DNA of 30,718 nt from a virus. This document shows, piece by piece, positions 6,722 through 30,718 of the stretch. Under the pieces are notes generated by a model, which was given only the letters and a program-made list of their open reading frames with translations, ran no database searches and was not told the DNA's origin. The stretch's first letter is position 1. Each line of letters opens with the position of its first letter. The translations under genes were made by a program, and so were the position numbers. The stretch is taken from the IMG/VR virus record IMGVR_UViG_3300017971_000628, positions 1 to 30,718 of that record; one strand, given 5' to 3'.

Positions 6722-6725
6722 ACTG

Positions 6726-12273: not shown

Positions 12274-12302
12274 CCCCTAGCCCGAAAAGGGAGACCCTTA
12301 AT

Positions 12303-13517: not shown

Positions 13518-13529
13518 CCATCACCCCCG

Positions 13530-13562
13530 CGCCCCACCGGGCGGGCAGGGCCCAGTGGGGCG
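13530..13562 (+). terminator. Stable hairpin after the major capsid gene
   Basis: CGCCCCAC (13530-13537) and GTGGGGCG (13555-13562) form a perfect 8-bp stem, with further GC pairing possible in the loop. No U-run follows, so it is not a classical Rho-independent terminator. It may reduce read-through or protect the abundant capsid mRNA 3' end before the next gene, which begins 24 bases later with its own strong ribosome site. Confidence 0.5.
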
Positions 13563-13585
13563 TAAATACCATAAGGAGCGATCTT

Positions 13586-14014
13586 ATGAGTTCTGCCCCC
13601 ACCGGGGTCAAAGAAGCTGTTGACCCCTGGTCCCTTCGTCCTGTCGTCGGGAAATTCCGCATCAAAGAGGGTGTTCATTCCGAGGGTGCGATACCAGGCA
13701 CCTACCGGAGAGACCCGACGGGAGCGCCGATGTTCAGCCCTCGCGTCTATGTCGATGGCGACATCGTGGCCTCTCGCAGCGACCTGTCCAAGCACAACCC
13801 CGCCCACGGCGCGAAGAAATTCGAGCGAGTCGACGATTCCATGCCGGACAAGTACGACGGCAACGCACCGCCCGTGGACGAGCTGGAGGCGATGACCGTG
13901 GCGCAGCTTCGGGAGTTGTCCGTTGCCGAGGAGATCGACCTTGGCGAGGCCACAAAGAAGGCAGACATCATCGAGTGGATTCGCATGGTACGGCAAGAGC
14001 GTGACCAGGAGTAA
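13586..14014 (+). CDS. Head protein with C-terminal SAP/HeH-like DNA-binding motif
   Basis: This 142-residue protein starts at ATG 13586 behind AAGGAGCGA; the frame is open back to 13385 but that part lies in the capsid gene. The N-terminal two thirds are polar and probably strand-rich ('MFSPRVYVDGDIVASRSDLSKHN' in outline). The C-terminal segment at about 102-135 ('MTVAQLRELSVAEEIDL', then 'ATKKADIIEWI') matches the helix-extended-helix (SAP, HeH or Rho N-terminal-like) pattern that binds nucleic acid. Proteins of this kind follow the capsid gene in many phages and are likely part of the head or the head-tail joint. Role inferred from position. Confidence 0.72.
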   Translation: MSSAPTGVKEAVDPWSLRPVVGKFRIKEGVHSEGAIPGTYRRDPTGAPMFSPRVYVDGDIVASRSDLSKHNPAHGAKKFERVDDSMPDKYDGNAPPVDELEAMTVAQLRELSVAEEIDLGEATKKADIIEWIRMVRQERDQE

Positions 14015-16338: not shown

Positions 16339-16724
16339 CCTACGGGAGTTGGATGCGTCTGTCCGCTCAAGTAGGTTTGCCGCTTCGCCAGACGATGAAG
16401 GCCGTCACCTGGAGGGAATACCGTACCTGGTTGGAGGTGGAAAAGCGCAGGTGGCCACAGCCCGGCCCCATTGACCGCGTAATGATGGACCCGGTGTTGT
16501 ACTTCCTGGCCCGTGTTGGCCAGCGCGTGCAGCAAGTGTTGTCCAAGGAGCCGGGGCAAATCCTGTTAGACGACCAACTGATTCAGTTTGAAGAACCCGA
16601 AGAACCACTTACGGAAGAGGAGAAGGCAGACAAGCTGAAGCGCGACAAGGGGTTGTGGAAGGGGATCATGCGGGCGATGGGCGGCAAGATCAAGTACAAG
16701 ACGCGGCCGAGAAATAATGAGTAG
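16335..16724 (+). CDS. Tail assembly chaperone, frameshift extension (gpT-like)
   Basis: This 129-codon frame can start at GTG 16335 (GTGA overlap with the stop before it), but is more likely read mainly as the C-terminal extension of the upstream chaperone through the GGGAAAC site. It contains 'VTWREYRTWLEVEKRRWPQPGPIDR', a phrase common in second tail chaperones, then an acidic part and a basic C-terminus ('KIKYKTRPRNNE'). In lambda the equivalent T domain binds tail tube subunits and brings them to the tape measure. The frame ends inside the start of the tape measure gene. Confidence 0.72.
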   Translation: MTYGSWMRLSAQVGLPLRQTMKAVTWREYRTWLEVEKRRWPQPGPIDRVMMDPVLYFLARVGQRVQQVLSKEPGQILLDDQLIQFEEPEEPLTEEEKADKLKRDKGLWKGIMRAMGGKIKYKTRPRNNE

Positions 16725-18861
16725 CGAAGTTGAACTTGAACGGATGGTGATGAGGCTTATCGGCGATGCCGAGAGCTATCTTGCCATGCTCAAGGAGGCT
16801 GAGGAAGGGACGGAAGAGACCGCTGACAAGGTTGAGGAAGCGGGCGAGAGAATCGAACGCTACGCCGCGGACCTGGAGAACCTTGGCAAGCAAATGTCGC
16901 TTGCCGTTACTGCGCCCCTGGCAGCCATGACGGCCGTGGCTACTGCGGCATATGCGGTTCAGGAGAATGCCGAGATCACCCTGCGCGGCATCATGCAGGC
17001 CACCGATCAATACACAGAAAAGAGCTTTGCCGATCTTCAGGAGTTCGCAAGCGGCCTGCAACTCATCACCACTACAGGCGATGAGGCGTACCTAGAAATG
17101 CTGCGTACCTCCTTTGCCCTGGGGCTTACGGCCGAGCAGGCCAAGGTGGCTGCGCGCGAGGCCAAGGCATTGGCGGCGGCCGTTGGCATGAACGCACGCA
17201 GCGCAGGACGATATACCGCGGCATTGGCGCAAGGCGAAACAATGATGTTGAATCGCTACCTTCCGTCGCTGCGTTTGATAGAAGACCAGGAAGAGCGGGT
17301 TGCCGAGGCCCACCGAATGCTGGGCACGATGTTTGCTGTTGCAGAAGCTGAGGCTGAGTCATTTGGGGGGCGCTTGCAGCAACTGAAGAACGTAATGGGT
17401 GATGTGCTGCAAGAGGAAATTGGGCAGATTATGGCCAAGTACCTCAAGCCGCTTATTGGCGTGGTGGAAGAGTTGGTGCGGTGGTTTCATGCCCTACCCA
17501 CAAGCATCAAGGAGGTTGTTATTGTTACGGCCGGGCTCGCTGCAACAGTTGGCCCCGTCTTGCTCACGATGTCCACGCTGGCAAAAATCCTTCCCTGGCT
17601 GGCGACAGGGCTCAAGGCTTATAGCTTTGCGGCCCTGGCCGCAAAGATCCAGACCGTGGCGTTCTATATCGCAACGCAGGCGGCGACGGTTGCGGCGATC
17701 GCCTTCAAAGCGATGGCTGGTCCCAAGGGGTGGCTTGCTATTGCTGGCGGCCTCACGGTTGCCACTGGTGCTATCATGCTATATCGCAACCGCGTTCAGG
17801 AGGCCACCAAAGAAGCGGAGGAGTCGGGAAAAGGGGTAGCCAAAATGGGCGGCGCGGCGAAAACGGCCATGGATCAAGCTGCGGCGGCAACGGATGGCTA
17901 TGCGGAATCGGTGCGCAATGCTTCGCGGGCAGTCAATGAAATGCCCGTAGAGAGGCAGCAATTTCTGGCTTTGTCTGCGCAAGTTGCGGAGGCCGAGGAG
18001 AAACTAGCAGCAATCAAAAAGGCATTTGCCTATGAAGAAGAGTCAGTGCGCCAGCAGGTGCCGGGCGCTGGCACCGTACAGATTGGTGGCATGGGGGTCG
18101 GGCTCGACATTGCCGCTTTGTATATCGAGGAGGAAGAGCAACGGCTAAACCGCTTGAGACAGAAGGCCGAAGATGCCCGCCAAGCCATGATGGCACCCAT
18201 CCCGTTAGAGATTGATACTTCAGGGCCAGAGGATGCTCTTGGTGAAATCGAAGACCAGTGGCGCGATGTGAGGTTTGAGTTGCAGGGGGCTACTGACCTT
18301 GAACAGGCAATGGTGCGTATCCACGAGGAGATGGACCAGCTTCCCGAAGAAGCATTCGCGCCGTTTGGCGGGGCCGCGGCATTCTTCGAGGACTACGAAA
18401 ACGCTGTGGCCGGTATGCTAGCCGACCGGGAGAAGTTAGAAACCCAGCAGCAAGGCGAGGCACTGATTGAGCAATTCGCCACCCCCTTTGAGATTGCCCA
18501 AAAGAAGATCGCAGATTACAAACGCATGCTCGATGTCCTCGGAGAGGAGCAGTTCGGCGAGACGTTCCGGCGCGCGACCAAGGCGGCCATCGACGAATAC
18601 GAAAATGCTGTCGGGGGTGTTGAGCGTATCCAGCCCGAAGCGGTGCAGACGATCCGCCGCGGTTCGGTGGCCGAGCAGCTTCTCATCCAAGAGTCGCGCC
18701 TTGCGATGAGCGCGCAGGAACCCAGCCAGGCACAAGAGGACAGCAGGAAACTGGGGGCCATTGCAAACGCCACGGCCCCCCTGGCAAACAAACTGGACGT
18801 TCTGAACGCCACCATGCAGTCACACGGGCTGGAGGCTGCCGACCTGGGGGGCATGGCATAA
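16717..18861 (+). CDS. Tail tape measure protein
   Basis: This 714-residue protein is mostly helical. 'LQQLKNVMGDVLQEEIGQIM' (about 220-239) followed by 'LKPLIGVVEELVRWFHALP' and a long hydrophobic zone (about 265-356, including 'AATVGPVLLTMSTL') is the classic tape measure pattern. N- and C-terminal parts are coiled-coil and Ala- or Glu-rich. The protein sets tail length and passes through the tube during DNA entry. By the usual 0.15 nm per residue, the tail would be roughly 105-110 nm, an inference that fits a siphovirus. The gene overlaps both neighbours slightly (ATG within the previous end, TAATG at its own end). Confidence 0.9.
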   Translation: MSSEVELERMVMRLIGDAESYLAMLKEAEEGTEETADKVEEAGERIERYAADLENLGKQMSLAVTAPLAAMTAVATAAYAVQENAEITLRGIMQATDQYTEKSFADLQEFASGLQLITTTGDEAYLEMLRTSFALGLTAEQAKVAAREAKALAAAVGMNARSAGRYTAALAQGETMMLNRYLPSLRLIEDQEERVAEAHRMLGTMFAVAEAEAESFGGRLQQLKNVMGDVLQEEIGQIMAKYLKPLIGVVEELVRWFHALPTSIKEVVIVTAGLAATVGPVLLTMSTLAKILPWLATGLKAYSFAALAAKIQTVAFYIATQAATVAAIAFKAMAGPKGWLAIAGGLTVATGAIMLYRNRVQEATKEAEESGKGVAKMGGAAKTAMDQAAAATDGYAESVRNASRAVNEMPVERQQFLALSAQVAEAEEKLAAIKKAFAYEEESVRQQVPGAGTVQIGGMGVGLDIAALYIEEEEQRLNRLRQKAEDARQAMMAPIPLEIDTSGPEDALGEIEDQWRDVRFELQGATDLEQAMVRIHEEMDQLPEEAFAPFGGAAAFFEDYENAVAGMLADREKLETQQQGEALIEQFATPFEIAQKKIADYKRMLDVLGEEQFGETFRRATKAAIDEYENAVGGVERIQPEAVQTIRRGSVAEQLLIQESRLAMSAQEPSQAQEDSRKLGAIANATAPLANKLDVLNATMQSHGLEAADLGGMA

Positions 18862-19835
18862 TGAGTGCAACCGCCCTAGACGGTGACAGCAACTTGCGAC
18901 GGGTGGCGTGGCGGCTGGAGCGGAACCGCGAAGGACACCGCACCTATCACGTAACGTGGTGCGTGTCGGCGGACGTGTCGGATGGCCCGAGCGTCATTAT
19001 GTCGGCGACGGGGTTGCCGGCCATTGGGAGCACATGGAACTATGGCGGCGCAGATTCGTTTGCGTACTGTTTGCCGACGATGAACGTAACACATGCTCCC
19101 GGCGTTCCGCCCGGCCACCCGGCTCGCTTGTGGCACGTTGAGCAGACGTTTTCCACGATCCCCATGAAACGGTGCCAGGACGAGTCTATTGAGGACCCGC
19201 TGCTGGAGCCGCAGGACGTGTCTGGCAGTTTTGTAAAGTATACCCAGGAAATTACCACAGACCGCTACGGCACTCTGCTCAAGACATCGTCGCACCAGCC
19301 GCTCCAGGGGCCGGACGTGGAATTCCCTGCCGGCAACCCGACCGTGCGAGTGTCGCAGAACGTGGCGGCCCTGGGGCTGAGCACGTTCGCTTCCATGTAT
19401 CTCACGGTGAACGATGACACGCTCTGGGGCCTGGCCACGCGCACCATCCTCCTTTCAAACGTCTCTTGGCAGCGGCTGATCTATGGAACGTGCGACTACT
19501 ACTATAAACGGACGTTTGATTTTGACATCGACTACGGCACCTGGGATCGACAGACGCCGGACTACTCCAATATGTGCATCAAGGGCGATTGGAATCGAAA
19601 GGTAGACCCGCCCGTGTGGACAGAGGCGAGCGGGGTCGATGAGGACAACCCGCAGGACTTTATGCGGTTCAAGGACGTGAACGGTGAAAACTGCCGCGTG
19701 TTGTTGAACGGATACGGCCGGCCGCTATCGGGCAGCGGTACGGGCACAGGCACGGGGGACGACATAGTGTATATCGACATCGAGCATTTTGACGAGAGCA
19801 ACTTCCTGACTCTCGGAATTCCAACCTCCTTCTAG
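18861..19835 (+). CDS. Putative distal tail or tail-tip structural protein
   Basis: This 324-residue protein follows the tape measure gene directly (TAATG overlap), where siphoviruses encode the distal tail and baseplate-hub proteins. It looks beta-rich and soluble, with many Trp, Tyr and Asp residues. No conserved enzymatic motif is apparent. A Gly-Thr linker, 'SGSGTGTGTG' at about 290-299, separates a short C-terminal strand segment ('DDIVYIDIEHFDESNFLTLG'). Similar linkers occur in two of the next three genes, suggesting a shared architecture. Identity as a virion protein is from position. Confidence 0.65.
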   Translation: MSATALDGDSNLRRVAWRLERNREGHRTYHVTWCVSADVSDGPSVIMSATGLPAIGSTWNYGGADSFAYCLPTMNVTHAPGVPPGHPARLWHVEQTFSTIPMKRCQDESIEDPLLEPQDVSGSFVKYTQEITTDRYGTLLKTSSHQPLQGPDVEFPAGNPTVRVSQNVAALGLSTFASMYLTVNDDTLWGLATRTILLSNVSWQRLIYGTCDYYYKRTFDFDIDYGTWDRQTPDYSNMCIKGDWNRKVDPPVWTEASGVDEDNPQDFMRFKDVNGENCRVLLNGYGRPLSGSGTGTGTGDDIVYIDIEHFDESNFLTLGIPTSF

Positions 19836-19845
19836 GGGGCTAAAT

Positions 19846-20271
19846 ATGAGTGACGAAGCTACGCGGCGCAGCAGCCTGTCATACAAAAAGGGCAATGTGG
19901 ACTGGCGGGAACACCCTACCAGTTTCACGTTTGACGTGAGCGGGACGGCTAAGGGCCCGGTACCCGGTGCGGTGCAGGCCACGGTGGCTGGTGTCAACAT
20001 TGATTTGACGGAACTGTCGACGCCCGGCGCGTGCCGCATCATGAACCTAGACGACACAAACCACGTCGCCTATGGAATCTGGGACGCCACCGACAGCATC
20101 TTTTTCGGGCTGGGCGAATTACTGCCCGGTGAATGGGTTGACCTTCGCCTCTGGCGATACCTGGGACAGGAGACGGGGACCGGGACGGGGACCATTGGCT
20201 CGGGCAACTCGCTGCGACTGAAAGCCGATACGGCGGCGTGTGAGTGTTATGTGGGGGCATTCGAGGCGTAG
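19846..20271 (+). CDS. Small virion structural protein with Gly-Thr linker
   Basis: This 141-residue protein, behind TAGGGGG, has phrases such as 'VAGVNIDLTELSTPGACRIMN' and 'LLPGEWVDLRLW' (in outline), a beta-sandwich pattern I recognise from small phage structural proteins encoded in tail modules. A Gly-Thr linker 'TGTGTGTIGSG' lies at about 110-120 before a final strand segment. No enzymatic residues are evident. It is probably a minor tail or head-fibre component. Confidence 0.6.
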   Translation: MSDEATRRSSLSYKKGNVDWREHPTSFTFDVSGTAKGPVPGAVQATVAGVNIDLTELSTPGACRIMNLDDTNHVAYGIWDATDSIFFGLGELLPGEWVDLRLWRYLGQETGTGTGTIGSGNSLRLKADTAACECYVGAFEA

Positions 20272-20289: not shown

Positions 20290-20772
20290 ATGTCCGACGT
20301 GGAGCGAGTCGGCGAAAAGCAAGAGATCGACCTCGGCGCTATGCGGCATGCCAAGCCGCGGTTAACGGTGGTCGACAACCTCTATTACCAGGTTCCGGGG
20401 GATGAGCCGGAACATTTTCAGGCTACGTTCAGCCGGACGCTTGAAAGCGACGAGCAGCCGTACACCCGCAAAATCAGCGTGGGCCCCGAATGGCGGCTCC
20501 TTGACTTCGGGTGGATTGACGAGCCTGGCCTGTTCATTCTCGACAACCGCGGCCTCCCACGGATGCAGTTCATCCAAGAGAAGCAGCCCGACCCGGAAAG
20601 CCTGGCTGTGCTTGTTAGGCCCCGCGGTGTGTCCGGCCATTTCTCTTGGCGCGTCCCTGTGGGTGAGTCTGCCCGCTTTAGTCCCAACTGGGCGGCCGGT
20701 GCAGAGCACCCGGTAGAAGTCGCCTGCCCCGGCGGCGAGGTTCGCTGCATACTCCACGCGCTCCCGAGGTGA
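20290..20772 (+). CDS. Small virion structural protein, beta-rich
   Basis: This 160-residue protein starts at ATG 20290 behind GGGAGCGAGCA. The middle portion ('TRKISVGPEWRLLDFGWIDE' and 'LFILDNRG...RMQFIQEKQ') suggests a beta-sandwich similar in style to its upstream neighbour, and the ending 'SARFSPNWAAG...VEVACPGGEVRCILHALP' is again strand-rich. No family is recognised with confidence. Location within the tail block and equal gene orientation support a virion role. Confidence 0.6.
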   Translation: MSDVERVGEKQEIDLGAMRHAKPRLTVVDNLYYQVPGDEPEHFQATFSRTLESDEQPYTRKISVGPEWRLLDFGWIDEPGLFILDNRGLPRMQFIQEKQPDPESLAVLVRPRGVSGHFSWRVPVGESARFSPNWAAGAEHPVEVACPGGEVRCILHALPR

Positions 20773-20776
20773 TGAC

Positions 20777-21445
20777 ATGCCCGAACCGTTGCACGGATTG
20801 TCTTCTGGGGACGTAGCAGTATTGCGGCGACTTATCGCGTGGGCCGAAAAACAGGGGCTCAACACGCGCGGGCGCTTCCCTCGCGAGCGGCAACACGCGG
20901 AGAACGACGATCACCAGGCCCCGGAAGTGTATGTGGCTAAGACGCCGGCGGGCGGTATCGACGGACTAACCCTCGGGGACGGCGGCACGGGCACAGGGGG
21001 ATATGACGAGCCGGGCAGCGCAACGTGTGACATCTACGTAATTGACGAGACCGACACCGTGCCCGACTTGCGCGACATGGGCAAGGATGTGATTGTCTAC
21101 AACGTGTCCGGGGTGGCGGTGCCCGGGAGCGCGTATGTACCGATAGTGCGCGACAAGTCCGGACGGTGGCTGGCTGTAACCCCGCCTATTGGAACGCGGC
21201 GGCGGTTCAAGCTGAAGGATGCTTTGGTTGCAGACGATCACGCCACTGCGTATCTCGTCGAAGCCTCGGGCGGAAGCCTGACGGCCACCGATACAGAGTT
21301 CGAGGTCTACGACGGCATGAGCGAGTTCGAGGGCGACGCGGGCACCCTGGGAATGGCCGAGTGGTGGGACGACATGGCGCGGTGGGAAGTGTACCAGATG
21401 GCGTGTGACGCAAGTGACGCCGGAACCGGAACGGGGACGCCGTGA
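20777..21445 (+). CDS. Putative tail fibre-like or virion protein with Gly-Thr linkers
   Basis: This 222-residue protein has GAGGTG before the ATG. It begins with a helical segment ('LSSGDVAVLRRLIAWAEKQG'), then 'PEVYVAKTPAGGIDGL' and a Gly-Thr linker ('GDGGTGTGG', about 67-75), a beta-rich middle ('CDIYVIDETDTVPDL...VIVYNVSG', 'GRWLAVTPP') and a C-terminus ending in 'DAGTGTGTP'. The 'VYVAKTPAGGI' phrase recurs in virion proteins of phages from environmental bacteria, as far as I recall. It probably forms part of a fibre or tail tip; the function is inferred. Confidence 0.62.
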   Translation: MPEPLHGLSSGDVAVLRRLIAWAEKQGLNTRGRFPRERQHAENDDHQAPEVYVAKTPAGGIDGLTLGDGGTGTGGYDEPGSATCDIYVIDETDTVPDLRDMGKDVIVYNVSGVAVPGSAYVPIVRDKSGRWLAVTPPIGTRRRFKLKDALVADDHATAYLVEASGGSLTATDTEFEVYDGMSEFEGDAGTLGMAEWWDDMARWEVYQMACDASDAGTGTGTP

Positions 21446-22014
21446 TGGGTTGGTACAACGGTACTGATGGGGATTGTAGTTGCTGTGTTGGCACCTGTGA
21501 AGGGGGTTGTGTCCCTAAGTGTAGGCCAGCAGGCAACATGACAGTGGACTTAACCATCCCTGCCGGGGCATTTGCACCGGACTACTGCACAAGTTGTGGT
21601 GACTTCAGTGGGGACTATAACCTTACTGGCATATTCCCTACGTTGTGCTTTGACTTTACATACACTGAGAACAACTACTGCGTTGACCCCGACTGCGATT
21701 GTGGTGATGCTTGGGACCTCTACATATCAGCAGGGGTGAGGTGTAGAGCGCCCGACTATTATTGCTCGTGGTCGCTGATTGTTGCAATTAGGCATGACAG
21801 ATTTGGCTGGAATCAATTTCTCCAAGAATGGACATACGGCTATGATTGGTTCCCTGGGTCGAACGGTGAACAGACTTTAAGCTTCGAGTCATACCGGGAT
21901 GATGGTCAGGTTAGGGAACCGTGCCCGCCTAATGCCGGTGAATTAGAGTATTTCTACCCTTATGACAAAGACAGCTATCCAGATACGCTTACCGTCACTC
22001 CGGTAATCACATGA
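21445..22014 (+). CDS. Cysteine-rich protein, possible extracellular virion or adhesin component
   Basis: This 189-residue protein starts at ATG 21445 (or GTG 21442), overlapping the previous stop. It contains 15 cysteines: six within the first 30 residues ('CSCC', then spaced Cys), 'YCTSC', 'DPDCDCGDAW', 'VRCRAPDYYC' and one near the end. Trp, Tyr, Asp and Gly are abundant, there is no Lys-rich region, and no membrane segment. Such a pattern fits a disulfide-stabilised or metal-binding protein exposed outside the cell, for example at the tail tip. The DNA looks less GC-rich, with a different codon choice, than the genes on either side. No family is recognised. It could be a substrate of the downstream modification genes. 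Confidence 0.65.
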   Translation: MGWYNGTDGDCSCCVGTCEGGCVPKCRPAGNMTVDLTIPAGAFAPDYCTSCGDFSGDYNLTGIFPTLCFDFTYTENNYCVDPDCDCGDAWDLYISAGVRCRAPDYYCSWSLIVAIRHDRFGWNQFLQEWTYGYDWFPGSNGEQTLSFESYRDDGQVREPCPPNAGELEYFYPYDKDSYPDTLTVTPVIT

Positions 22015-22418
22015 GCCAAATCTGTAGACTAGTGGACATTGGGGGCGGTTTAGGTTACTGCCCAATATGCGACCCTGATCGGAAGAGCCCTATGGAGCTA
22101 AGCCGTAAAAGGACGTGCAGGGCATCTAATGCGCTCACGCAACTTCGTTCACGGGTTGTAAGGGAACGCCCCGAGGCGAACCTTGTCGCAAACCCTACGC
22201 CACCCCCCAGGAAACGCCTGGGGGACCACGTAGAAACCGCACTCACAGCCGTAGGCATTACCGCAGAGCGCGTCACAAGGTGGGTGGGGCGGCCGTGCAG
22301 GTGCAAGGAGCGAAAGGAGCGGCTGAACCTCCTGCACGCATGGGTGGAGAAAAAAGCCCGGGGGCTGTTCAGGGGCAACCGGGAAGCGGCAAAGGAACTG
22401 GAGGAGCTGCTGGAATGA
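22011..22418 (+). CDS. Small Cys-containing phage protein (CPIC and CRC motifs)
   Basis: This 135-residue protein begins by ATGA overlap with the Cys-rich gene. The N-terminal part has 'GYCPICDPDRK' and a later Cys, which may form a zinc site. The C-terminal part, 'LGDHVETALTAVGITAERV' followed by 'WVGRPCRCKERKERLNLLHAW', is a compact domain I recognise from small phage proteins at the end of tail operons, function unknown. The C-terminus is basic then acidic helical. Its TGA stop overlaps the ATG of the first glycosyltransferase, so the cargo cassette is translationally joined to the tail operon. Confidence 0.68.
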   Translation: MSQICRLVDIGGGLGYCPICDPDRKSPMELSRKRTCRASNALTQLRSRVVRERPEANLVANPTPPPRKRLGDHVETALTAVGITAERVTRWVGRPCRCKERKERLNLLHAWVEKKARGLFRGNREAAKELEELLE

Positions 22419-23167
22419 AATGGGCATATGGAGTCACGACGGTGCCCGAGCGGTTGGACGCGCTCTTGCCGCAGACGCTCCATTCCCTCGCACTGGCAGG
22501 GTTCGGGGAACCTCGCCTGTTCGTAGACGGTGCGGAAACTGACGTAGACTACCGGCACTTCGACCTGCCCATCACCACGCGGTTTCCTCATGTGCATGCT
22601 TATCCGCATTGGGTGCTGTCGGCGTGGGAGTTGTACCTGCGTTCGCCGGAGGCAGACCGCTACGCCATCTTTCAAGACGACCTCCTAGCCGTGCGGCATC
22701 TACGCCAGTACCTAGAGCGCACACCCTATCCAGCAAACGGCTACCTCAACCTCTACACGTTCCAAGAGTCCAACGAGACGCTCGTACGGGACAAGCCGCC
22801 GGGATGGTACGAGGCGAGCACCTTAGACAAGTCGGAGCAGTGGCAGACAGGACGGGGCGCGGTGGGGCTGGTGTTCGACCGAGCGGCGATGATTGCCTTA
22901 CTCGATTCTGGCTACTTGGCCCGACGCTTTCACGACTACCAGGGCAGGGACAAGGGCGGCACGAAGAACGGCCTTCCGCGTGCCTATTCCCGCATTGACG
23001 GGGCCGTTGTGACGGCGATGAACCTAAACGAGTGGCGGGAATACATTCACGCTCCCAGCCTAATTCAGCACACCGGGAAGCGCAGCTCTCTTGGCAGCGC
23101 CAAGATGCCGACGGCCAAGACGTTTCCCGGCGAGACTTTCGACGCAACGGAGTGGATCAATGATTGA
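22415..23167 (+). CDS. GT-A-like glycosyltransferase
   Basis: This 250-residue protein starts at ATG 22415 (ATGA) with GGAGGAG upstream; the open frame from 22280 is a shadow of the previous gene. It opens with 'YGVTTVPERLDALLPQTLHSL', typical of nucleotide-sugar transferases, and carries 'YAIFQDDLLA' with Asp88-Asp89 as the likely metal-binding acidic motif. 'GYLNLYTF' and the closing 'APSLIQHTGKRSSLG' (about 213-227) match the end of GT-A-type enzymes in which a His binds the metal or phosphate. It would transfer a sugar in the cytoplasm; acceptor unknown. It is the first of eight cassette genes. Confidence 0.75.
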   Translation: MKWAYGVTTVPERLDALLPQTLHSLALAGFGEPRLFVDGAETDVDYRHFDLPITTRFPHVHAYPHWVLSAWELYLRSPEADRYAIFQDDLLAVRHLRQYLERTPYPANGYLNLYTFQESNETLVRDKPPGWYEASTLDKSEQWQTGRGAVGLVFDRAAMIALLDSGYLARRFHDYQGRDKGGTKNGLPRAYSRIDGAVVTAMNLNEWREYIHAPSLIQHTGKRSSLGSAKMPTAKTFPGETFDATEWIND

Positions 23168-24221
23168 TTTGCACTGCTATAGTCCCCTCAAGGTGTTCCA
23201 TCATCGGGACCGCATTGACGCCATCCAGGCAGGGCAGCACCCCCCACCGCTGCACGTCCAGTTGATCCCAACGAACCGCTGCAACCAGAACTGCCGCGGG
23301 TGCGCCTACCGCAATGCGGAATACACTTCCGGCCAGGACTTTGAGCAGCGCGACGAGATCCCTTGGGCAAAGCTCCGGGAAGTGGTGCGCGACTGCTCGG
23401 CCATGGGCGTGCAGGCCATTCAGTTGACCGGGGGCGGCGAGCCCACGGTACACCCCCGCTTTCTCGATCTGTGTCATTGCATCCTCAAGGCCGACATCAG
23501 CCTGGCCCTAGTGACGAATGGTGTGAGCTGGTCCCAGCGCCACGTTGACCTACTCAAACAGGCCGCGTGGGTGCGGTTCAGCTTCGATGCTGCGACCCCG
23601 GAAACATACGGCCGATATCGCCGGGCACCCCTGGACACCTACCAGAGAGTGCGCGGCAACTTGCGGCGACTCACCAGCGAGAAAGGCCCGGACTGCGTTG
23701 TGGGCGTGGGGTTCGTCGTCAACGAGTACAACTGGCAAGAGATAGCACAGGCATGCAGGCACGCGCGCGAAGACGGGGCCGACAACTTCCGGATTAGCGC
23801 GCTGTTTCAGAATCGGGGCATTGCCTACTTCCGATCGTTCTATCACGCCGCGCGCGACTTGTGCCGCGAAGCCAAGGCCATGGAAACGGAGTCGTTCCGG
23901 GTGTTCGATCTGTTTGGCGACCGGCTGGAAGACTTGGAGCAGGCAAGCCCCGACTACGACCGTTGCGGGCAGAGTCGCCTGGTAACGTATTTGGGAGCGG
24001 ACCAGAACGCCTACGTGTGCTGTATCTACGCTTACAACAAGGCCGGGCGGTTGGGCTCGTTTCAAGAGCAGCGGTTTGCCGAGCTGTGGGACTCCGAAAA
24101 AGTCCGCGCGGTGCTCGACAATCTCGACCCCCGCCGGTGTGTCCGTTGCATGTTCAACGAGAAGAATCGCGCAATTGAGTACGCGCTGACCCCCTTGCCT
24201 CCCCATGTAGGGTTTGTGTGA
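23160..24221 (+). CDS. Radical SAM enzyme with SPASM-like C-terminus
   Basis: This 353-residue protein starts at ATG 23160 with GGAG upstream, overlapping the previous gene by eight bases. The radical SAM cluster motif CNQNCRGC is at Cys41, Cys45 and Cys48, and 'LTGGGEP' (about 89-95) is the SAM-binding GGE-type motif. The C-terminal region has several cysteines ('YDRCGQSR', 'YVCCIYAYN', 'RRCVRCMFN') and the phrase 'GRLGSFQEQRFAELW', features of SPASM/twitch domains that bind extra iron-sulfur clusters. Family members often modify peptides or proteins, or carbohydrates. Four base or catalytic residues beyond the cluster are not assignable. The substrate is unknown. Confidence 0.87.
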   Translation: MIDLHCYSPLKVFHHRDRIDAIQAGQHPPPLHVQLIPTNRCNQNCRGCAYRNAEYTSGQDFEQRDEIPWAKLREVVRDCSAMGVQAIQLTGGGEPTVHPRFLDLCHCILKADISLALVTNGVSWSQRHVDLLKQAAWVRFSFDAATPETYGRYRRAPLDTYQRVRGNLRRLTSEKGPDCVVGVGFVVNEYNWQEIAQACRHAREDGADNFRISALFQNRGIAYFRSFYHAARDLCREAKAMETESFRVFDLFGDRLEDLEQASPDYDRCGQSRLVTYLGADQNAYVCCIYAYNKAGRLGSFQEQRFAELWDSEKVRAVLDNLDPRRCVRCMFNEKNRAIEYALTPLPPHVGFV

Positions 24222-24973
24222 TGAAAACCGCACTTGCCATCCTTGCAACAGGTGACTATGCCGTTGGGGCTGAGGTGATGTTCCACACGTTGCGGCGCTA
24301 CGGCAACCTGCCGGATAGCGTCGACTGTTACGCCGTGGGGATGGATACCTGCACGTTTGCCCAAGCGTATCCGCTGTCTGTTGACTATTCGTGGGTACGG
24401 GTAAGCGAGACGCATTTCTCCGAGGTGGCAAAGAAATTCCAAGCACTGACCCTTGGGGTCGACCGGCTGATCTTGATGGATGCAGACATGCTCTGCGTGG
24501 GCGATTGCTCCTATCTGTGGAGCGGCTCTATCGGGCGATTGCCTTTCTACGCTTGTCGGGACACGGCCAGCGTCGTCTATTACGACAAGATTATCCGGAC
24601 GATCGGCCTAGATAGTAGCCGGTTGTTCAACGCGGGCACAATGGTATTCGACTTCCGGCACCTGCCGTCCACGTTTCACGATGACCTGCTGCGCGACATT
24701 GCCGATGGAGTGTGCCTAGCATACGACGGGGGCGATCAAGGCTACCTCAACCACTACTTCCAGTTGCACCGCTACGAGACCGGCGTGCTGCCTGTCGAGT
24801 ACAACGAGAGCTACGACGTGAACATGCCGGGAGTCCCGGACCATGCAAAACGGGTCATTCACTTTACGGGCGGCAATGCGAACCCGTGGAGCCCGCGACT
24901 GAAGGCCAACGATCCACGATGGCGATGGGTCACGAGGTGGCAGGAAGAATACGGGAGATGTAAAGCACAATGA
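24221..24973 (+). CDS. GT8-like glycosyltransferase (glycogenin type)
   Basis: This 250-residue protein starts at ATG 24221, sharing one base with the preceding TGA (GTG 24218 is possible). 'RLILMDADMLCVGD' holds the DxD motif (Asp87, Asp89), 'FNAGTMVFD' and 'GDQGYLNHYF' are standard GT8 signatures, and 'HFTGGNANPW' is the C-terminal His-containing metal-binding motif. These retaining enzymes use UDP-glucose or UDP-galactose-type donors with Mn2+. The acceptor in this cassette is unknown. The start of the next gene overlaps its stop (ATGA). Confidence 0.87.
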   Translation: MKTALAILATGDYAVGAEVMFHTLRRYGNLPDSVDCYAVGMDTCTFAQAYPLSVDYSWVRVSETHFSEVAKKFQALTLGVDRLILMDADMLCVGDCSYLWSGSIGRLPFYACRDTASVVYYDKIIRTIGLDSSRLFNAGTMVFDFRHLPSTFHDDLLRDIADGVCLAYDGGDQGYLNHYFQLHRYETGVLPVEYNESYDVNMPGVPDHAKRVIHFTGGNANPWSPRLKANDPRWRWVTRWQEEYGRCKAQ

Positions 24974-26493
24974 AGTTCTCCATTGTGATGACGACCTGCA
25001 ACCGCGACACCTTCCTGCGCTACGCGCTTGGCAGCCTCCAACGTCAAGGGCTGGGGCAAATGGATCACGAAGTGATTGTGGCCAATGACGGGCACCGCGA
25101 AGAAACGGAGTCGCTGTGCCGCACCTCGCCGGTTGTGGCCGGCTTGAACGTGCGTCACATTCACACCGGCACGCGCACACAAGCATACTGGCGGTGTATG
25201 GGGTTTGCTGCCAACGTAGGGATTCAGCAGGCGACGGGGGAAATCGTCGTCCTAACCAACTCGGACATTTTCCATATCGGCGAGACCCTGCGGCCAGTGA
25301 TTGCAGCCGCCGAAAACGACCGCATGGCCATGAGCACGCTGCACGACGTGTACGACGACGACGGCCGGCTGGTTACGCTCTTGGGTAAGGCCAAGGCCAC
25401 GGTCGCCCATCACCTAGGCGAAGTAGTGGACCGCATACGCAAGGGCCCCCGCCCGCCCGGTTTCTATCCGGCGAACCCTGATGTACCGTTCTTCCTGGCC
25501 GTGCGGCGTGAACACTTGTTGTACGTGGGTGGATACGATGAGGACTTCATCGGGTGCGCTTCGGAGGACTGCGATCTACTCGACCGGCTACAGGCTATCG
25601 GGTGCCGCTACGTGTACGCACCGCCGGGCGCAGAGGCAATCCATTTGTACCATGGGCGGAGGGGTATCAAAGAGCTAGAGGCCGATCCCGGGTTTGCGTA
25701 CAACATTCGTTTGCGCAAGGAACGCGCCGGGCAACTCGTGCGCAACGTCAACCGGCCGTGGGGTGAGCTAATCGACTCACACGCACCGTGGGACGGTGCG
25801 CCGCTGCACTTGGTCTTGTGGGTTACGAGTCGCTGCAACTTGGCGTGCCCGCACTGTAACCAGGCTGTCACGAGAAGCGAACGGCCTGACTACGAAATGG
25901 GCCGGGACGAGCTAGAACAGTTCATAGAGTCTTGTCGATCGCGTGGGATTCATTTTGCGACCATTGAATTATCCGGCGGCGAGCCTACGCTCTGGCCGTT
26001 GTTCGCGGAAAGTATCGGCCTACTACAAGAGTCGGGCATTACGGACGCCGTGACGTTTGTCACGAACGGACGCGATGCGGCCAACGTCGCAGAAACAGCG
26101 AACCGCTATGGATTACGGTACGTCGTCTCGGCTAACCAATGCACGGCAGAGGACGCCGACACACACCGGCGGCTCGGGGTGGCGGTTACTTGGAACGAGT
26201 TGCCGCACCGTGTGCCGCCTACGGAGGTGCAGGTAGGTTGCCTGCCGGCGGACTGTTCGCAACGGCGTGACAGCAGCGGGCGCGTTGTACGACAGCTCAT
26301 GTATCTGTATGGCAACGTGTGGTATTGCTGCATGGCGTTCGCAAACCACCGGCACATCGGAGCGGACGCAGGCTCGTTGCATTGTGGGTTTGATGAGGAT
26401 TTCAATGCCCGGTTTCACAAACGGGCTGATGACCTGCCGATTTGCGGGGCATGCCTCTGTAACAACAACGTCTGGAGGCAACTGGAAGAATGA
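24970..26493 (+). CDS. Fusion of GT2 glycosyltransferase and radical SAM enzyme
   Basis: This 507-residue protein joins two enzymes in one uninterrupted frame. Residues 1 to about 260 are a GT2-type domain: 'FSIVMTTCNRDTFLRYALGS', 'HEVIVANDG' (Asp40), the acidic metal motif 'LTNSDI' (95-100) and 'ASEDCDLLDRL' with Glu199-Asp200, the probable base region. Residues about 278-507 are a radical SAM domain: cluster motif CNLACPHC (Cys289, Cys293, Cys296), 'LSGGEPTLW' (334-342), and C-terminal cysteines 'WYCCM' and 'ICGACLC' that may bind an auxiliary cluster. GGGAG precedes the ATGA-overlapping start. A two-step sugar transfer and radical modification of the same substrate is plausible. Confidence 0.88.
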   Translation: MKFSIVMTTCNRDTFLRYALGSLQRQGLGQMDHEVIVANDGHREETESLCRTSPVVAGLNVRHIHTGTRTQAYWRCMGFAANVGIQQATGEIVVLTNSDIFHIGETLRPVIAAAENDRMAMSTLHDVYDDDGRLVTLLGKAKATVAHHLGEVVDRIRKGPRPPGFYPANPDVPFFLAVRREHLLYVGGYDEDFIGCASEDCDLLDRLQAIGCRYVYAPPGAEAIHLYHGRRGIKELEADPGFAYNIRLRKERAGQLVRNVNRPWGELIDSHAPWDGAPLHLVLWVTSRCNLACPHCNQAVTRSERPDYEMGRDELEQFIESCRSRGIHFATIELSGGEPTLWPLFAESIGLLQESGITDAVTFVTNGRDAANVAETANRYGLRYVVSANQCTAEDADTHRRLGVAVTWNELPHRVPPTEVQVGCLPADCSQRRDSSGRVVRQLMYLYGNVWYCCMAFANHRHIGADAGSLHCGFDEDFNARFHKRADDLPICGACLCNNNVWRQLEE

Positions 26494-27743
26494 GAGCAGC
26501 GCTGATCTACTTCAACAACGACAAGCTCATCAGTCGTGGCGTGGGGTATGTGCTCCAGTGTGCCAGGGATGCTGGGCATGACGTGGAGTTGCTGGATACC
26601 GTATGGATCGGCAACGAAGGGGCCATCAACCAGATACTTGGCGGCGAGTACGGCGCTGTGCTCCTGTCGGCCACGAGTCTATACTGGGAGCGGGCCGCGG
26701 CGACGGCCCGCACGATCAAGGCGCTCTTGCCCGATGTACCGATCATCCTGGGGGGCGCGCACGCAACCGTGTGCGGCGGTGACCTGTTGCGCAGTTGTGC
26801 CGCGATTGACTATCTCTGTGTCGGCGAGGGCGAGGGCTTCGTAGTCGAGGTGCTAGATTCCATTGAGCGAGGCAGGAACCTCACAAACATCCGCAATCTC
26901 GTTTATCGGGTGGGCCGCCGCGTAGTCACCAACCCGCTCCGACCGCCAACACCCCTGGACTCGTTGCCGCGATTTGATTATGAGGCGTGGAATCCGGGCT
27001 CGGTCATTCGGGAGCGCGGCAATCTGTTCCCCGGGTTCTGTTACGTCTTCGCTACGCGCGGGTGTCCATATAGTTGTACCTACTGCTGCAACAGCAGTTT
27101 TCTCCGTTTGTATCGCAAGGGATTGCTGCGCACCCATTGTGTCGATACGGTAATTGCCGAACTCAAGCACTTGCGTGACACGTATCCGCTGGAGTTGGCG
27201 TATTTCGGCGATGAGATGATTACCTTCGACAAACGATTCGTTGCCGAGCTGTTCACGGCCGTACACAAAGAAGTCGGCATACCCTACGGCTGCATGTTTC
27301 GGGCCGATACGGTGGATGACGATTTGGTTGACCTGCTCCGTCGCACTGGCTGTACGTACGTGGCGAGCGGTGTAGAGTGCGGCAACGAGGAGTTCCGGAG
27401 GCGCTGGCTAAATCGGCGCGACAGTAACACGCAACTCAAAGCCGCCTTTCGGTTGCTGCGGACCATTCCCGATATCTGGATTACCACCTACAACATGCGA
27501 GGGTTTCCGGTCTCGTTTGATAACCGGTTGACTGTTGCGACCCGGCGGCTAAACAACCGGCTTCGGCCGAATCATAGCCAGATGACCTGGTTTTTCCCGC
27601 TGCCGGGCACACGACTTTACGACTACTGTACGGAGCGCGACCTAATTGACATGAGCCTGATCGGCTCATCCGAAGACTACTTTCGCCGCTCGGTAATTCG
27701 CAGGCCCATTGACCCGTCACTAGACACCCCCATATACAAGTAG
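26490..27743 (+). CDS. B12-binding-type radical SAM enzyme
   Basis: This 417-residue protein has a Rossmann-like N-terminal domain typical of cobalamin-binding radical SAM proteins: 'PDVPIILGGAHATVCGGDLL' (81-100) and 'YLCVGEGEGFVVEVL' (108-122). The usual DxHxxG axial ligand motif is not seen, so cobalamin may bind base-off or not at all. The radical SAM domain has CPYSCTYC (Cys192, Cys196, Cys199) in 'ATRGCPYSCTYCC', followed by 'LAYFGDEMITFDKRF' and 'GVECGNEEFRRRWLNR'. Such enzymes methylate unactivated carbons or rearrange lipids, peptides and tetrapyrroles. It starts by ATGA overlap behind GGAAG. Substrate unknown. Confidence 0.87.
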   Translation: MRAALIYFNNDKLISRGVGYVLQCARDAGHDVELLDTVWIGNEGAINQILGGEYGAVLLSATSLYWERAAATARTIKALLPDVPIILGGAHATVCGGDLLRSCAAIDYLCVGEGEGFVVEVLDSIERGRNLTNIRNLVYRVGRRVVTNPLRPPTPLDSLPRFDYEAWNPGSVIRERGNLFPGFCYVFATRGCPYSCTYCCNSSFLRLYRKGLLRTHCVDTVIAELKHLRDTYPLELAYFGDEMITFDKRFVAELFTAVHKEVGIPYGCMFRADTVDDDLVDLLRRTGCTYVASGVECGNEEFRRRWLNRRDSNTQLKAAFRLLRTIPDIWITTYNMRGFPVSFDNRLTVATRRLNNRLRPNHSQMTWFFPLPGTRLYDYCTERDLIDMSLIGSSEDYFRRSVIRRPIDPSLDTPIYK

Positions 27744-27752
27744 GGTATTTGC

Positions 27753-28679
27753 GTGAAGCCCCCAAGCAATGTTACAGCCGTCTTCACTTCAGTGTGCCAC
27801 TACCGCTGCCGGTTCTGCTCTAACCGTCTGCACGTTAAAGATATGTGGCACTGGTCCTATGAGGATATCACTACCAAGCTGGACGCCTTGTGGAGCAGCG
27901 CCAAAGACCTGAACATCGGCGGGTGCGGCGAGGTAACACTACTGCCGTTCTTCGAGCAACTGCTGGAGTATTTTGACACCAAGCCGGGCCGCATTTGCTT
28001 CTCGACCAATGGGCACAGGTTGCGGCCTGAGTTGGTGCGGCGCTATCGGCTGGGCGAGATCGTGATTTCCCTGCACTCCCTTGTGCCGGACACGTATGAC
28101 GCCCTGACCGGCACCAAAGGACATTGGCCCACCGTCGTGGCGAACACGCGAGCTATGATGGCCAGGCCGCACGACTACCGTGCTGTTATCGCCGCAGTCG
28201 TCACGCAAAAGAACGTCCTGGAGGCTCCTGCGTTAGCCCGCTTCGCTCTGGAGGTAGGGGCCGATGAAATGCGCTTCCTTCCCCTATGCGACCCCGTGCA
28301 GACTGGGATGGAGAACGGCCAGTATGACGAGGACCTTGTGCTGCACGAAACGCCCGAGAACCTCCAGGCCATCGAGGAAGCGAACGCAATCATGGGCAAG
28401 GAGAAAAAGGTCGTCCGAGGCTTCTTGACGACGGACGAGCGGCGGGAGGTGGTAAGGCAGCGAATGCCGTTATGCCAAAGCCCCTCACAGCAACTCGTAA
28501 TCAATATGGACGGCACGGTCCAGCCCTGTTGCTTCATTCCGCCGACGTATGGCTTTGGCAACGTGCTGGAGCAACCGTGGGAAGAGGTGTGGAACAGCCC
28601 GAAATACCAAGAGTTCCGCGCGCAAACAAAGGCGGGTACATGCAAGATGTGCCTGGATCACTGCAAGAACTGGGGATGA
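27753..28679 (+). CDS. Radical SAM enzyme with SPASM domain
   Basis: This 308-residue protein starts at GTG 27753, nine bases after the previous stop. The cluster motif CHYRCRFC is at Cys15, Cys19 and Cys22. The SAM-binding stretch is the variant 'NIGGCGEVTLLP' (54-65). The C-terminal part reads 'PLCQSPSQQLVINMDGTVQPCC', 'GNVLEQPWEEVW' and 'CKMCLDHCKNWG' (given in pieces), a textbook SPASM domain with enough cysteines for auxiliary Fe-S clusters. SPASM members include peptide-modifying maturases and sulfatase-activating enzymes. It differs from the first radical SAM gene of the cassette (23160), so the two are not a recent duplication. Confidence 0.88.
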   Translation: MKPPSNVTAVFTSVCHYRCRFCSNRLHVKDMWHWSYEDITTKLDALWSSAKDLNIGGCGEVTLLPFFEQLLEYFDTKPGRICFSTNGHRLRPELVRRYRLGEIVISLHSLVPDTYDALTGTKGHWPTVVANTRAMMARPHDYRAVIAAVVTQKNVLEAPALARFALEVGADEMRFLPLCDPVQTGMENGQYDEDLVLHETPENLQAIEEANAIMGKEKKVVRGFLTTDERREVVRQRMPLCQSPSQQLVINMDGTVQPCCFIPPTYGFGNVLEQPWEEVWNSPKYQEFRAQTKAGTCKMCLDHCKNWG

Positions 28680-28682
28680 GCG

Positions 28683-29372
28683 ATGCGCTTTCTGTTGGTC
28701 AGTTCCGGCCGGTCGGGTACGCACATGCTGCGGTCAATCTTTCGCGCGCACCCAGACGTTGCGGCGTGGCACGATTACCAGGGCCGGTACGCCACGCGGC
28801 CGGGTGCGCTGCCCACCGAGTTGGCGGAATATTACAAGCGGCTTGACCCCGACGCGACCGTGGGCGCGATGGAGCATTTTCACGAGGCCGTGTTCCGCCG
28901 TTGCCCGCCGGACCCCGCCGCCTGGCACCAACACTGGACGAAGCTGCGCCGCATTCACAACCGGGTGATAGTCTTGACGCGAGACGATGTGCTAGGGCAA
29001 TACCTGTCTGTCTCCATTGCCAACCGCGACCTAACGCGCGGCGACTATGCGGCGTGGGCCTCGGAGCGCCCGAGGCAAACGCACCCGGAGCCTCTGCTGT
29101 TTGACATGGCAGCGTTTCGCTACCATGTAACTCGGCTGACATCAGCCCAGCAGCAGGTTCGGGCATTGTTGTCAACGTACTTTGCCGTCCGCTATGAAGA
29201 CCTGGTTGAACGGTGGGAAGATACCGTGCGCGGGATTTACGAGCACCTGGGGCTGCGATGGAACGACCCGGTGCCGGCAACGCACAAGCAGGAGACGCGG
29301 CCATATTCGGAGATCGTGGCCAATTGGGACGAGGTGCATGGTGCGCTGCGCGAAATGGGGGTGTGCGAATGA
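28683..29372 (+). CDS. Sulfotransferase (PAPS-dependent, NodH-like)
   Basis: This 229-residue protein starts at ATG 28683, three bases after the previous stop. The N-terminal 'VSSGRSGTHMLRSIF' (6-20) is the 5'-phosphosulfate-binding loop, with Arg10-Ser11-Gly12-Thr13. 'VIVLTRDDVLGQYLSVSIANR' (about 95-115, in outline) carries Arg100 and Ser109 of the 3'-phosphate-binding site. 'YFAVRYEDL' and 'YEHLGL' further on are usual in this family. It moves a sulfate from PAPS to a hydroxyl or amine, often on a carbohydrate. With the glycosyltransferases around it, a sulfated sugar is the simplest product; this is inference. Confidence 0.86.
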   Translation: MRFLLVSSGRSGTHMLRSIFRAHPDVAAWHDYQGRYATRPGALPTELAEYYKRLDPDATVGAMEHFHEAVFRRCPPDPAAWHQHWTKLRRIHNRVIVLTRDDVLGQYLSVSIANRDLTRGDYAAWASERPRQTHPEPLLFDMAAFRYHVTRLTSAQQQVRALLSTYFAVRYEDLVERWEDTVRGIYEHLGLRWNDPVPATHKQETRPYSEIVANWDEVHGALREMGVCE

Positions 29373-30082
29373 AGGCTAGCATTTGTATCGCCACACACGA
29401 CAAGCCCGAGCCCTTGCGGCGGGTGCTCGACTCTATCTATATTCAGCAGCCCCCTTTTGCATTTGAGGTGATTGTAGTTGACGACGGGCCTTCAACAGTG
29501 GCCACTGCTGAGGTGTGCAGGGGCTATGAGTGGGTGCATTACATTAGGCGGCGGTGGGATAACGAATATCGCAACCCCGCCCCCGCTCGCAATGCCGCGT
29601 ATCGGCGCGCGCGTGGGGAGATCATTATCTGTCAGAGCGACGATGTCGTTCACCGGGGCGAGGCGATAGAACAGCTTGTCGAGGAAATGGCCCCCGGCCG
29701 TTTCGTATTGGCGACCGTGCTCAATACGGACGAGATGTTGCGCCCCAAGGGGTGCGGACACCCACGGAACCCGGGGCTTGTTGAATTATGCGGCCCCAAG
29801 GGGCGGCGGCCGTTGTTCTTCTTGGGTGCCGTGTACCGGAGCGACCTCTACGCAGTGGGGGGGAATGACGAGCGGTTTATTGCACCAGGCAGGGAGGACG
29901 TGTGGTTCGTAGACTGTCTGACCAAGGGTCGCGGGCTGGAGCCGTTTTTCGGTTCGGCCCGCGGCTGCCACCTGCACCACGAGCGGCCACCGGTAGAGGC
30001 GTTTGCCCCGTCCCATGACGTGTATAGGAGCGTGGTGGTTCAGGGGGTCTGGCACACGCCCAGCGCCCCGTGGCCAGTCTGA
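29369..30082 (+). CDS. GT2 family glycosyltransferase
   Basis: This 237-residue protein starts at ATG 29369 with ATGA overlap and GGGGG upstream; the frame back to 29213 is inside the sulfotransferase gene. 'ASICIATHDKPEPLRRVLDSI', 'FEVIVVDDG' (Asp38-Asp39), 'NAAYRRARGEIIICQSDDVV' with Ser90-Asp91-Asp92, and 'GREDVWF' with Glu176-Asp177 are the standard GT2 elements (nucleotide site, metal site, catalytic acidic pair). The C-terminus is short and has no membrane segment, so the enzyme is cytosolic. It is the last cassette gene, and its stop codon lies at the first arm of the terminator-like inverted repeat. Confidence 0.88.
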   Translation: MKASICIATHDKPEPLRRVLDSIYIQQPPFAFEVIVVDDGPSTVATAEVCRGYEWVHYIRRRWDNEYRNPAPARNAAYRRARGEIIICQSDDVVHRGEAIEQLVEEMAPGRFVLATVLNTDEMLRPKGCGHPRNPGLVELCGPKGRRPLFFLGAVYRSDLYAVGGNDERFIAPGREDVWFVDCLTKGRGLEPFFGSARGCHLHHERPPVEAFAPSHDVYRSVVVQGVWHTPSAPWPV

Positions 30083-30139
30083 CGCGGGCATTGGGCCCGC
30101 CGGGTGCGGCCTTCGCTCCGCCGCGCCCGAGACTGGCCA
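30071..30139. terminator. Long inverted repeat, probable bidirectional terminator between convergent genes
   Basis: TGGCCAGTCT (30071-30080) and AGACTGGCCA (30130-30139) are a perfect 10-bp inverted repeat. Inside it, CGGGC/GCCCG and GCGG/CCGC can add pairing. The phage glycosyltransferase ends at its left arm and the minus-strand host gene ends at 30149, so the structure separates two convergent transcripts. No clear U-run follows on either strand. It could also mark the prophage end. Confidence 0.55.
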
Positions 30140-30148
30140 TGCTTACCA

Positions 30149-30718
30149 CTATTGCGCTCCCAGCAGCGTGTGATTGTCGATGTTGTCGAAGTTGTCCAAC
30201 GAGTCCGGCGTCCGCTTCGGGCCGTGCAACAAGTCCGCAGGATCTTCCGGCGGGTCCATTGCCGTGACCGACACGTTCCAACTGTTCACCGGAATCCCCG
30301 CTTCGTTGGGTTCCGGACTGCCGACAGGGCCGAATGAGTACGGGTCGCGCTGCTGGGTGAATTGATAGCCAGGCTCGAAATTCACGTCATAGATCCCGTC
30401 AGGCCCAGCGGAGTAGATGTACGGGACGAGTCGGTAAGCGCTGCCCTGGACGTTGCGGGAGTCGAAGAGGTCGTGGTCGACCGCGGCGGCCTTCTCCGCG
30501 GCTGCTGCGTTCCGCTCGTATAGCTTGTCGTCGTCGGCATCGAAAAACACCTGTTTCTGAAGCGGGGAGCCGACGAGCCCGGGAGCCCAGCGCAGGAACA
30601 TGATCGGGTTGCCCCAGCCGTCGTGAAATTCATACACCCCGTCGCCATCGGCATCGCCCACTTCGTTGTCGTGTAATCGGGCCAACTCTCCCCCGCCGCT
30701 GGCAAGCTCGCCTTCAAC
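30149..30718 (-). CDS. Host pseudopilin-like protein, C-terminal part (5' end outside window)
   Basis: The minus-strand frame is open to the right edge, so the start lies outside; about 189 residues are visible. 'GDADGDGVYEFHDGWGNPIMFLRW', quoted in outline, combines a calcium-loop-like DxDxDG with the 'DGWGNP' phrase of type II secretion-like pseudopilins. 'YIYSAGPDGIYDVNFEPG' is the matching C-terminal phrase, 'SAGPDG'. Proteins of this kind, with a prepilin N-terminus and long variable C-terminal part, are abundant in planctomycetes. This is the only non-phage gene recognised and indicates the host. It is convergent with the phage cargo cassette. Confidence 0.75.
   Translation of the reverse strand, partial: VEGELASGGGELARLHDNEVGDADGDGVYEFHDGWGNPIMFLRWAPGLVGSPLQKQVFFDADDDKLYERNAAAAEKAAAVDHDLFDSRNVQGSAYRLVPYIYSAGPDGIYDVNFEPGYQFTQQRDPYSFGPVGSPEPNEAGIPVNSWNVSVTAMDPPEDPADLLHGPKRTPDSLDNFDNIDNHTLLGAQ

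Follow-up and report, generated by a model that had tools for sequence, protein, structure and literature searches.

What might a run of glycosyltransferase (GT), radical SAM, and sulfotransferase genes be doing at the end of a phage tail operon? The window, by which we mean the whole 30,718-base IMG/VR virus record analyzed here, carries terminase, portal, head, connector, and tail genes through the tape measure protein, all on the plus strand. In the same-strand run with the tail genes stand eight ORFs at 22415-30082, all open at the coordinates given in Table 1, which together encode one PAPS-type sulfotransferase, four GT domains, and four radical SAM domains that fall into three types. 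An earlier note on this DNA had assigned these enzyme types by reading the letters; Pfam, NCBIfam, and motif matches agree with it, and the fourth GT domain, that of the gene we call gtA, is supported by its predicted fold.

Table 1. Coordinates of the window features referred to in the text, with supporting matches
Feature	Position	Strand	Match, motif, or remark
Small terminase	1351-1980	+	
Large terminase	3449-5047	+	
Portal	6726-8627	+	
Tape measure protein, precedes cassette	16717-18861	+	PHROG tail length tape measure 1.5e-17
Tail-module protein, SGSGTGTGTG tract	18861-19835	+	candidate glycan acceptor
Tail-module protein, TGTGTGT tract	19846-20271	+	candidate acceptor
Tail-module protein, TG tracts	20777-21445	+	candidate acceptor
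Small Cys-containing protein, frequent gtA neighbor	22011-22418	+	
gtA, orphan GT-A-fold glycosyltransferase, conserved; locus anchor	22415-23167	+	predicted fold
rSAM1, radical SAM-SPASM	23160-24221	+	Pfam Radical_SAM 3.6e-19, SPASM 1.8e-5; CNQNCRGC
GT8 glycosyltransferase, DAD motif	24218-24973	+	Pfam Glyco_transf_8 3.4e-9; MDADML
GT2-radical SAM fusion	24970-26493	+	Pfam Glycos_transf_2 1.9e-12, Radical_SAM 5.3e-10; CNLACPHC
B12-binding-type radical SAM	26490-27743	+	Pfam B12-binding 1.2e-14, Radical_SAM 1.1e-14
rSAM2, second radical SAM-SPASM	27753-28679	+	Pfam Radical_SAM 2.8e-11, SPASM 1.7e-16
PAPS-type sulfotransferase	28683-29372	+	Pfam Sulfotransfer_3 6.8e-12
GT2b, GT2 glycosyltransferase	29369-30082	+	Pfam Glycos_transf_2 1.1e-19
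Strong hairpin past last gene	30075-30135	+	-41.1 kcal/mol, z -2.6; possible transcript end

The layout is as compact as the earlier note had described: of eight junctions, the one to the preceding ORF included, six are overlaps of 4 to 8 nt and two are gaps, of 3 and 9 nt. Its reading of intact catalytic motifs also held for the four CxxxCxxC motifs, the DxD/DD motifs, and the GRSGT-like 5'-PSB motif of the sulfotransferase, the last by direct reading; by profile, this protein is a putative PAPS-dependent sulfotransferase, at 46.5 bits against a curated cut-off of 27. Continuity with the tail operon, another of its claims, is borne out by a single same-strand run in which promoter-like and terminator-like sites (20700-30718) occur at chance level. 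GC3 is alike in the cassette (0.71 to 0.77) and the structural genes (0.66 to 0.79). A simple hydropathy test found no transmembrane segment in any cassette protein. Among solved structures, the nearest relative of rSAM1 is the cytosylglucuronate decarboxylase BlsE (7vob, 3e-8), with a weaker match to SkfB, and that of the B12-type enzyme is AprD4 (6fd2, 3e-12). AprD4 and BlsE are sugar-modifying enzymes and SkfB is a peptide maturase; since the substrates of AprD4 and BlsE are free small molecules, the resemblance is no proof of a glycan substrate.

Several minor features of the window lie outside the cassette. Short purine-rich tandem repeats (GGAGCGGAAA and AGGATGGGAAAGGAA) occupy positions 445-715, around the start of an ORF at 574-1221 whose N terminus may be spurious. 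A Phage_integrase-family gene of only 200 amino acids (2301-2903; Pfam 7.9e-38) sits at an unusual site between the small and large terminase genes and has no homologue in the head-related loci. The gene at 13385-14014, with an Endonuclease VII-like C-terminal domain (PHROG 4.6e-8), overlaps a virion structural gene (12165-13517) and has homologues in 28 fetched loci. Scans for tRNAs and Rfam families found nothing. On the minus strand, an ORF at 30149-30718, open at the record edge, converges on the cassette; by eye it looks like a prepilin-type host protein, and it has no Pfam or plasmid match. The right end of the window is a possible, though unproven, host-phage junction. A scan of bacterial genomes for the head protein and single-sequence pattern scans for the GT-radical SAM fusion returned nothing, and since such scans require exact short peptides, this absence is weak evidence.

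The first cassette gene, gtA, had no match in Pfam, PHROG, NCBIfam, PDB sequences, INPHARED, or plasmids, and no sequence match was detected among 50,697 phage records. An AlphaFold model made with nine homologues (pLDDT 81, pTM 0.83) predicts a GT-A fold glycosyltransferase. Foldseek gave POMGnT1, a protein O-mannose GlcNAc-transferase (5ggi, E = 1.4e-8), as the best match in the PDB; a fungal galactofuranosyltransferase, mimivirus R655/R699, and GnT-I (1foa, 1.5e-6) were also matched. The best match in BFVD was gp87 of Mycobacterium phage Ardmore; TM-scores for the closest of these matches are moderate (0.5 to 0.6). The model thus has the GT-A fold of GT13 enzymes (POMGnT1/GnT-I), but sequence-level membership in GT13 was not found, either in Pfam or in a search of the PDB with a 9-sequence profile. 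An FQDD sequence, plausibly a metal-binding motif, is conserved. Homologues in relatives share 39 to 49% identity with gtA, and the gtA profile detected at least 84 IMG/VR contigs, 80 of which were fetched (66 once near-duplicates were removed). The small Cys-containing protein adjoins gtA in 25 of the 80 loci, upstream in 12 and downstream in 13, and in L073 the two share one open frame.

We asked how firmly gtA belongs to the phage backbone, using relatives chosen by an unrelated gene, that for the minor head protein (47 loci). Among 34 head-related records, the tail gene at 18861-19835 was present in 14, of which 13 also carried gtA; the sole record with the tail gene and no gtA, G016, ends less than 400 bases from the tail gene. 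gtA is a core gene of this phage group, found in 13 of 13 informative records. These relatives are mostly metagenomic fragments, and gene calling was mechanical. The earlier note had proposed co-occurrence with tail genes as a check, and across the 80 gtA loci the check came out in its favor: tail homologues, where present, always precede gtA on the same strand, and those of the cassette are found only downstream. Homologues of the tape measure protein were found in 35 of the 80 loci, upstream of gtA every time, and those of the tail-module proteins at 18861-19835 (again upstream), 19846-20271, and 20777-21445 in 54, 40, and 47 loci, respectively. gtA represents a core phage gene family missed by the protein libraries searched.

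The other seven cassette genes behave differently: in the tail-end regions fetched from head-related phages, their matches were weak or absent. They are a variable payload, and the cassette is one allele of a widespread slot. Proteins downstream of gtA, in a random sample of 150, matched methyltransferases, GDP-mannose dehydratases, epimerases, GTs, radical SAM enzymes, DegT aminotransferases, UDP-sugar dehydrogenases, and acetyltransferases, while most matches of 108 upstream proteins were to structural families of phages and two were to GT2. Radical SAM matches in 50 gtA records were concentrated 0 to 10 kb downstream of gtA on the same strand (28 of 31 matches, spanning 23 records), where uniform placement would predict 2.9. 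Two or more transmembrane segments were found in only 3 of 416 downstream proteins. In at least 80 viral contigs, gtA is tied to cassettes of sugar and radical SAM genes that are hypervariable.

Parts of the window's allele recur elsewhere. Homologues of rSAM1 (51 to 54%) lie directly or shortly past gtA in L161, L117, L101, and L287. L161 keeps gtA, rSAM1, sulfotransferase, and GT2b in the window's order, interrupted by a methyltransferase and a hexapeptide acetyltransferase; its sulfotransferase homologue, past rSAM1, is 23% identical over 226 amino acids (E = 4e-18). gtA, rSAM1, and GT2b are common to L101 and L287. The rSAM1-GT2b pair is also found without detected gtA in L288, L290, L302, L304, L307, and L312-L317, which indicates that sub-blocks move between backbones. 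The idea of one fixed pathway of eight genes had to be given up, since gtA is core, the other seven genes vary, and sub-blocks recur (L161, L101, L287, L302, and L312-L317). We also rejected the sulfotransferase as a constant part of the locus: PF13469 was matched in 8 of 50 gtA records, and in 3 of them within 10 kb downstream. In L308, where gtA was undetected, a GT2-like region (5238-6918) 34% identical to part of the fusion at 24970-26493 (4e-39) adjoins an rSAM1-like gene.

With moderate confidence, we interpret the cassette as an allele of a diversifying virion (tail) glycosylation locus in a group of tailed phages. Glycosylation of a virion protein fits the combination of a core GT that keeps its place by the tail module and a changing set of soluble sugar enzymes behind it: the phage encodes a GT whose gene is conserved in the group and linked to those of the virion, and the content of GTs and sugar enzymes varies at a fixed site beside the tail genes, as in hypervariable glycan islands. 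The cassette is probably transcribed with the tail operon, in which case its enzymes would act during tail assembly; the layout makes such late expression probable. The first (or a common) sugar would be attached by gtA to a core protein of the virion, most probably one of the tail proteins whose genes lie shortly before it, and the products of the exchangeable genes would go on to lengthen and edit the glycan. In the window's allele, sugars would be added by the GT8, the GT2-radical SAM fusion, and the GT2 enzyme; the radical SAM enzymes (two of SPASM type, the fused one, and the B12-type one) would remove, epimerize, or methylate sugar groups; and the sulfotransferase would cap sugars with sulfate. 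NDP-sugars, PAPS, SAM, and cobalamin would come from the host. The acceptor, the order of reactions, and the benefit are as we infer them, but the swapped genes behind gtA suggest that the virus particle bears a sugar coat that can change, and cassette swapping would alter the particle surface and so change adsorption or shielding.

If the virion is indeed the acceptor, these phages vary their surface by exchanging glycan enzymes, rather as bacteria do with their O antigens. A stronger version, in which this is a polymorphic viral "serotype" locus with a conserved initiating tail GT, interchangeable cassettes, and a radical-SAM-edited, sulfated virion glycan, is tentative, and we would not yet expect it to hold in full; we know of no report of virion glycan decoration that is radical-SAM edited and sulfated. 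The locus offers a specific place to seek new radical SAM sugar chemistry, and virion glycosylation is testable in this group.

Thr-Gly tracts in the upstream tail proteins were considered as a mark of the acceptor. Such tracts occur in 51 of 178 proteins within 3 kb upstream of gtA versus 2 of 416 downstream, and 89 were observed versus 7 expected from shuffling; they are written in mixed codons. However, similar tracts are found in many unrelated viral contigs: 80 tract-bearing contigs yielded no gtA in the stretches fetched, one of which came from a known gtA contig. Since the tracts are common in stretches where gtA was not found, they do not mark the acceptor, and we rejected them in that role, retaining them as a weak lead only. 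Homologues of the 20777-21445 protein in L065 (15875-18064) and L064 (697-2709) contain Ser/Thr/Pro-rich stretches, long and mucin-like, rich in Thr or Ser-Pro.

The same enzymes might instead act on the host, altering the glycans of envelope or capsule in an infected cell or a lysogen and so blocking competing phages. The authors who described GT-rich islands in pelagimyophages read them in this manner (PMC7029224), the window has an integrase-family gene, and its cassette may sit at the right edge of an integrated element. We nevertheless regard host-surface conversion as unlikely, given that a Phage_integrase match was present in only 4 of 50 gtA records, that the cassette is coupled to tail genes on the same strand, that gtA is core in the phage group, and that no membrane GT, flippase, or GtrA is encoded. 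GtrA was found in none of the 50 gtA records, and together with a cassette free of transmembrane segments this favors a cytoplasmic acceptor over export to the host surface. Quite improbable, in our view, is that the enzymes yield a peptide or small molecule carrying modifications, for instance a ribosomal peptide or a sugar compound resembling an antibiotic. SPASM radical SAM enzymes often serve in peptide maturation, and SkfB, BlsE, and AprD4 are among the nearest solved relatives, but no precursor peptide gene was recognized between the tightly packed genes, there is no exporter, and the alleles downstream of gtA consist mostly of NDP-sugar, methyltransferase, and GT enzymes.

That the slot is simply permissive and has gathered miscellaneous cargo with no common pathway would account for the wide differences in composition among relatives. 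It would leave unexplained the strong bias to sugar chemistry and radical SAM enzymes, the recurrence of rSAM1-GT2b pairs in unrelated phages, and an anchor, gtA, that is universal among informative records, and we give it very little credence. Least probable of all is hypermodification of phage DNA bases by the GTs. Virus-encoded GTs can glycosylate DNA, according to literature cited in PMC12619734, and a thymidylate-synthase-family gene is present in 11 of 50 gtA records; however, none lies within 10 kb downstream of gtA, which disfavors a DNA substrate, 39 of the 50 records have no such gene, the cassette stands beside tail rather than replication genes, and no base hydroxymethylase linked to the GTs was found. 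The thymidylate-synthase-family genes themselves (in G007, G019, G036, G038, G043, G045, G050, G051, G055, G067, and G073) are mostly long frames of 380 to 645 amino acids; they may be nucleotide hydroxymethylases, so that DNA modification in part of the group is possible.

Virion glycosylation by phage enzymes has precedent in mycobacteriophages, whose own GTs are reported to glycosylate capsid and tail tube (PMC12363180, PMC12619734); the enzymes named include Che8 gp110, Corndog gp38, and a Myrna GT (Freeman 2023, as cited in PMC12363180). A phage-encoded GT for virion proteins (capsid and tail tube in theirs) would be common to both, and among viral proteins the best fold match of gtA is the Ardmore protein. 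Unlike theirs, the GT here is joined to a large variable set including radical SAM enzymes and a sulfotransferase, and no sequence match to gtA was detected in the 50,697 phage records. The hypervariable region of pelagimyophages holds GTs, sugar enzymes, and radical SAM enzymes, for which the authors favor modification of the host O chain (PMC7029224). Like the host recognition cluster of pelagimyophages and cyanomyophages, in which GT8 is foremost (PMC7029224), our locus is hypervariable and lies within structural genes; theirs is by tail fibers. Pelagimyophages are T4-like myophages, however, and no core GT resembling gtA is reported to anchor their region. A T4-like backbone with the region between VrlC and gp14 was not found here: no T4-like neck or VrlC match occurred among the window genes scanned, and the portal, head, connector, and tail genes match PHROG families other than T4-like ones. 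Serotype conversion by gtr clusters (GtrA/GtrB/GtrC) likewise relies on phage-borne GTs, but neither GtrA nor a membrane GT is present here. Giant-virus glycosylation clusters (mimivirus) share virus-encoded glycan synthesis and, in R655/R699, a fold match to gtA; they belong to eukaryotic viruses, with no detected sequence relation to gtA and no radical SAM enzymes or tail linkage shown. The earlier statement that no such phage system had been described stands for the exact set as far as the open-access literature reaches, where the two papers found to bring together phage, GT, radical SAM, and sulfotransferase do not, by title and abstract, deal with a locus of this kind; but the pelagimyophages carry hypervariable GT-rich regions with radical SAM enzymes by their tail fiber genes (PMC7029224).

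Two further observations concern individual relatives. L077, from the gtA-bearing phage G017, contains dispersed repeats with a 37-base period, in which spacers of varying make-up separate GGCTGCGCTC and GGTTCGCTC units, at 57-345, 2785-2888, 18125-18411, and 19345-19492, and some of these adjoin gtA. In L101, a protein beginning MKPRKLLFEGLEVRTLLSA is encoded straight after the cassette (18272-19972); it resembles a planctomycete surface-protein leader, a possible hint at the host.
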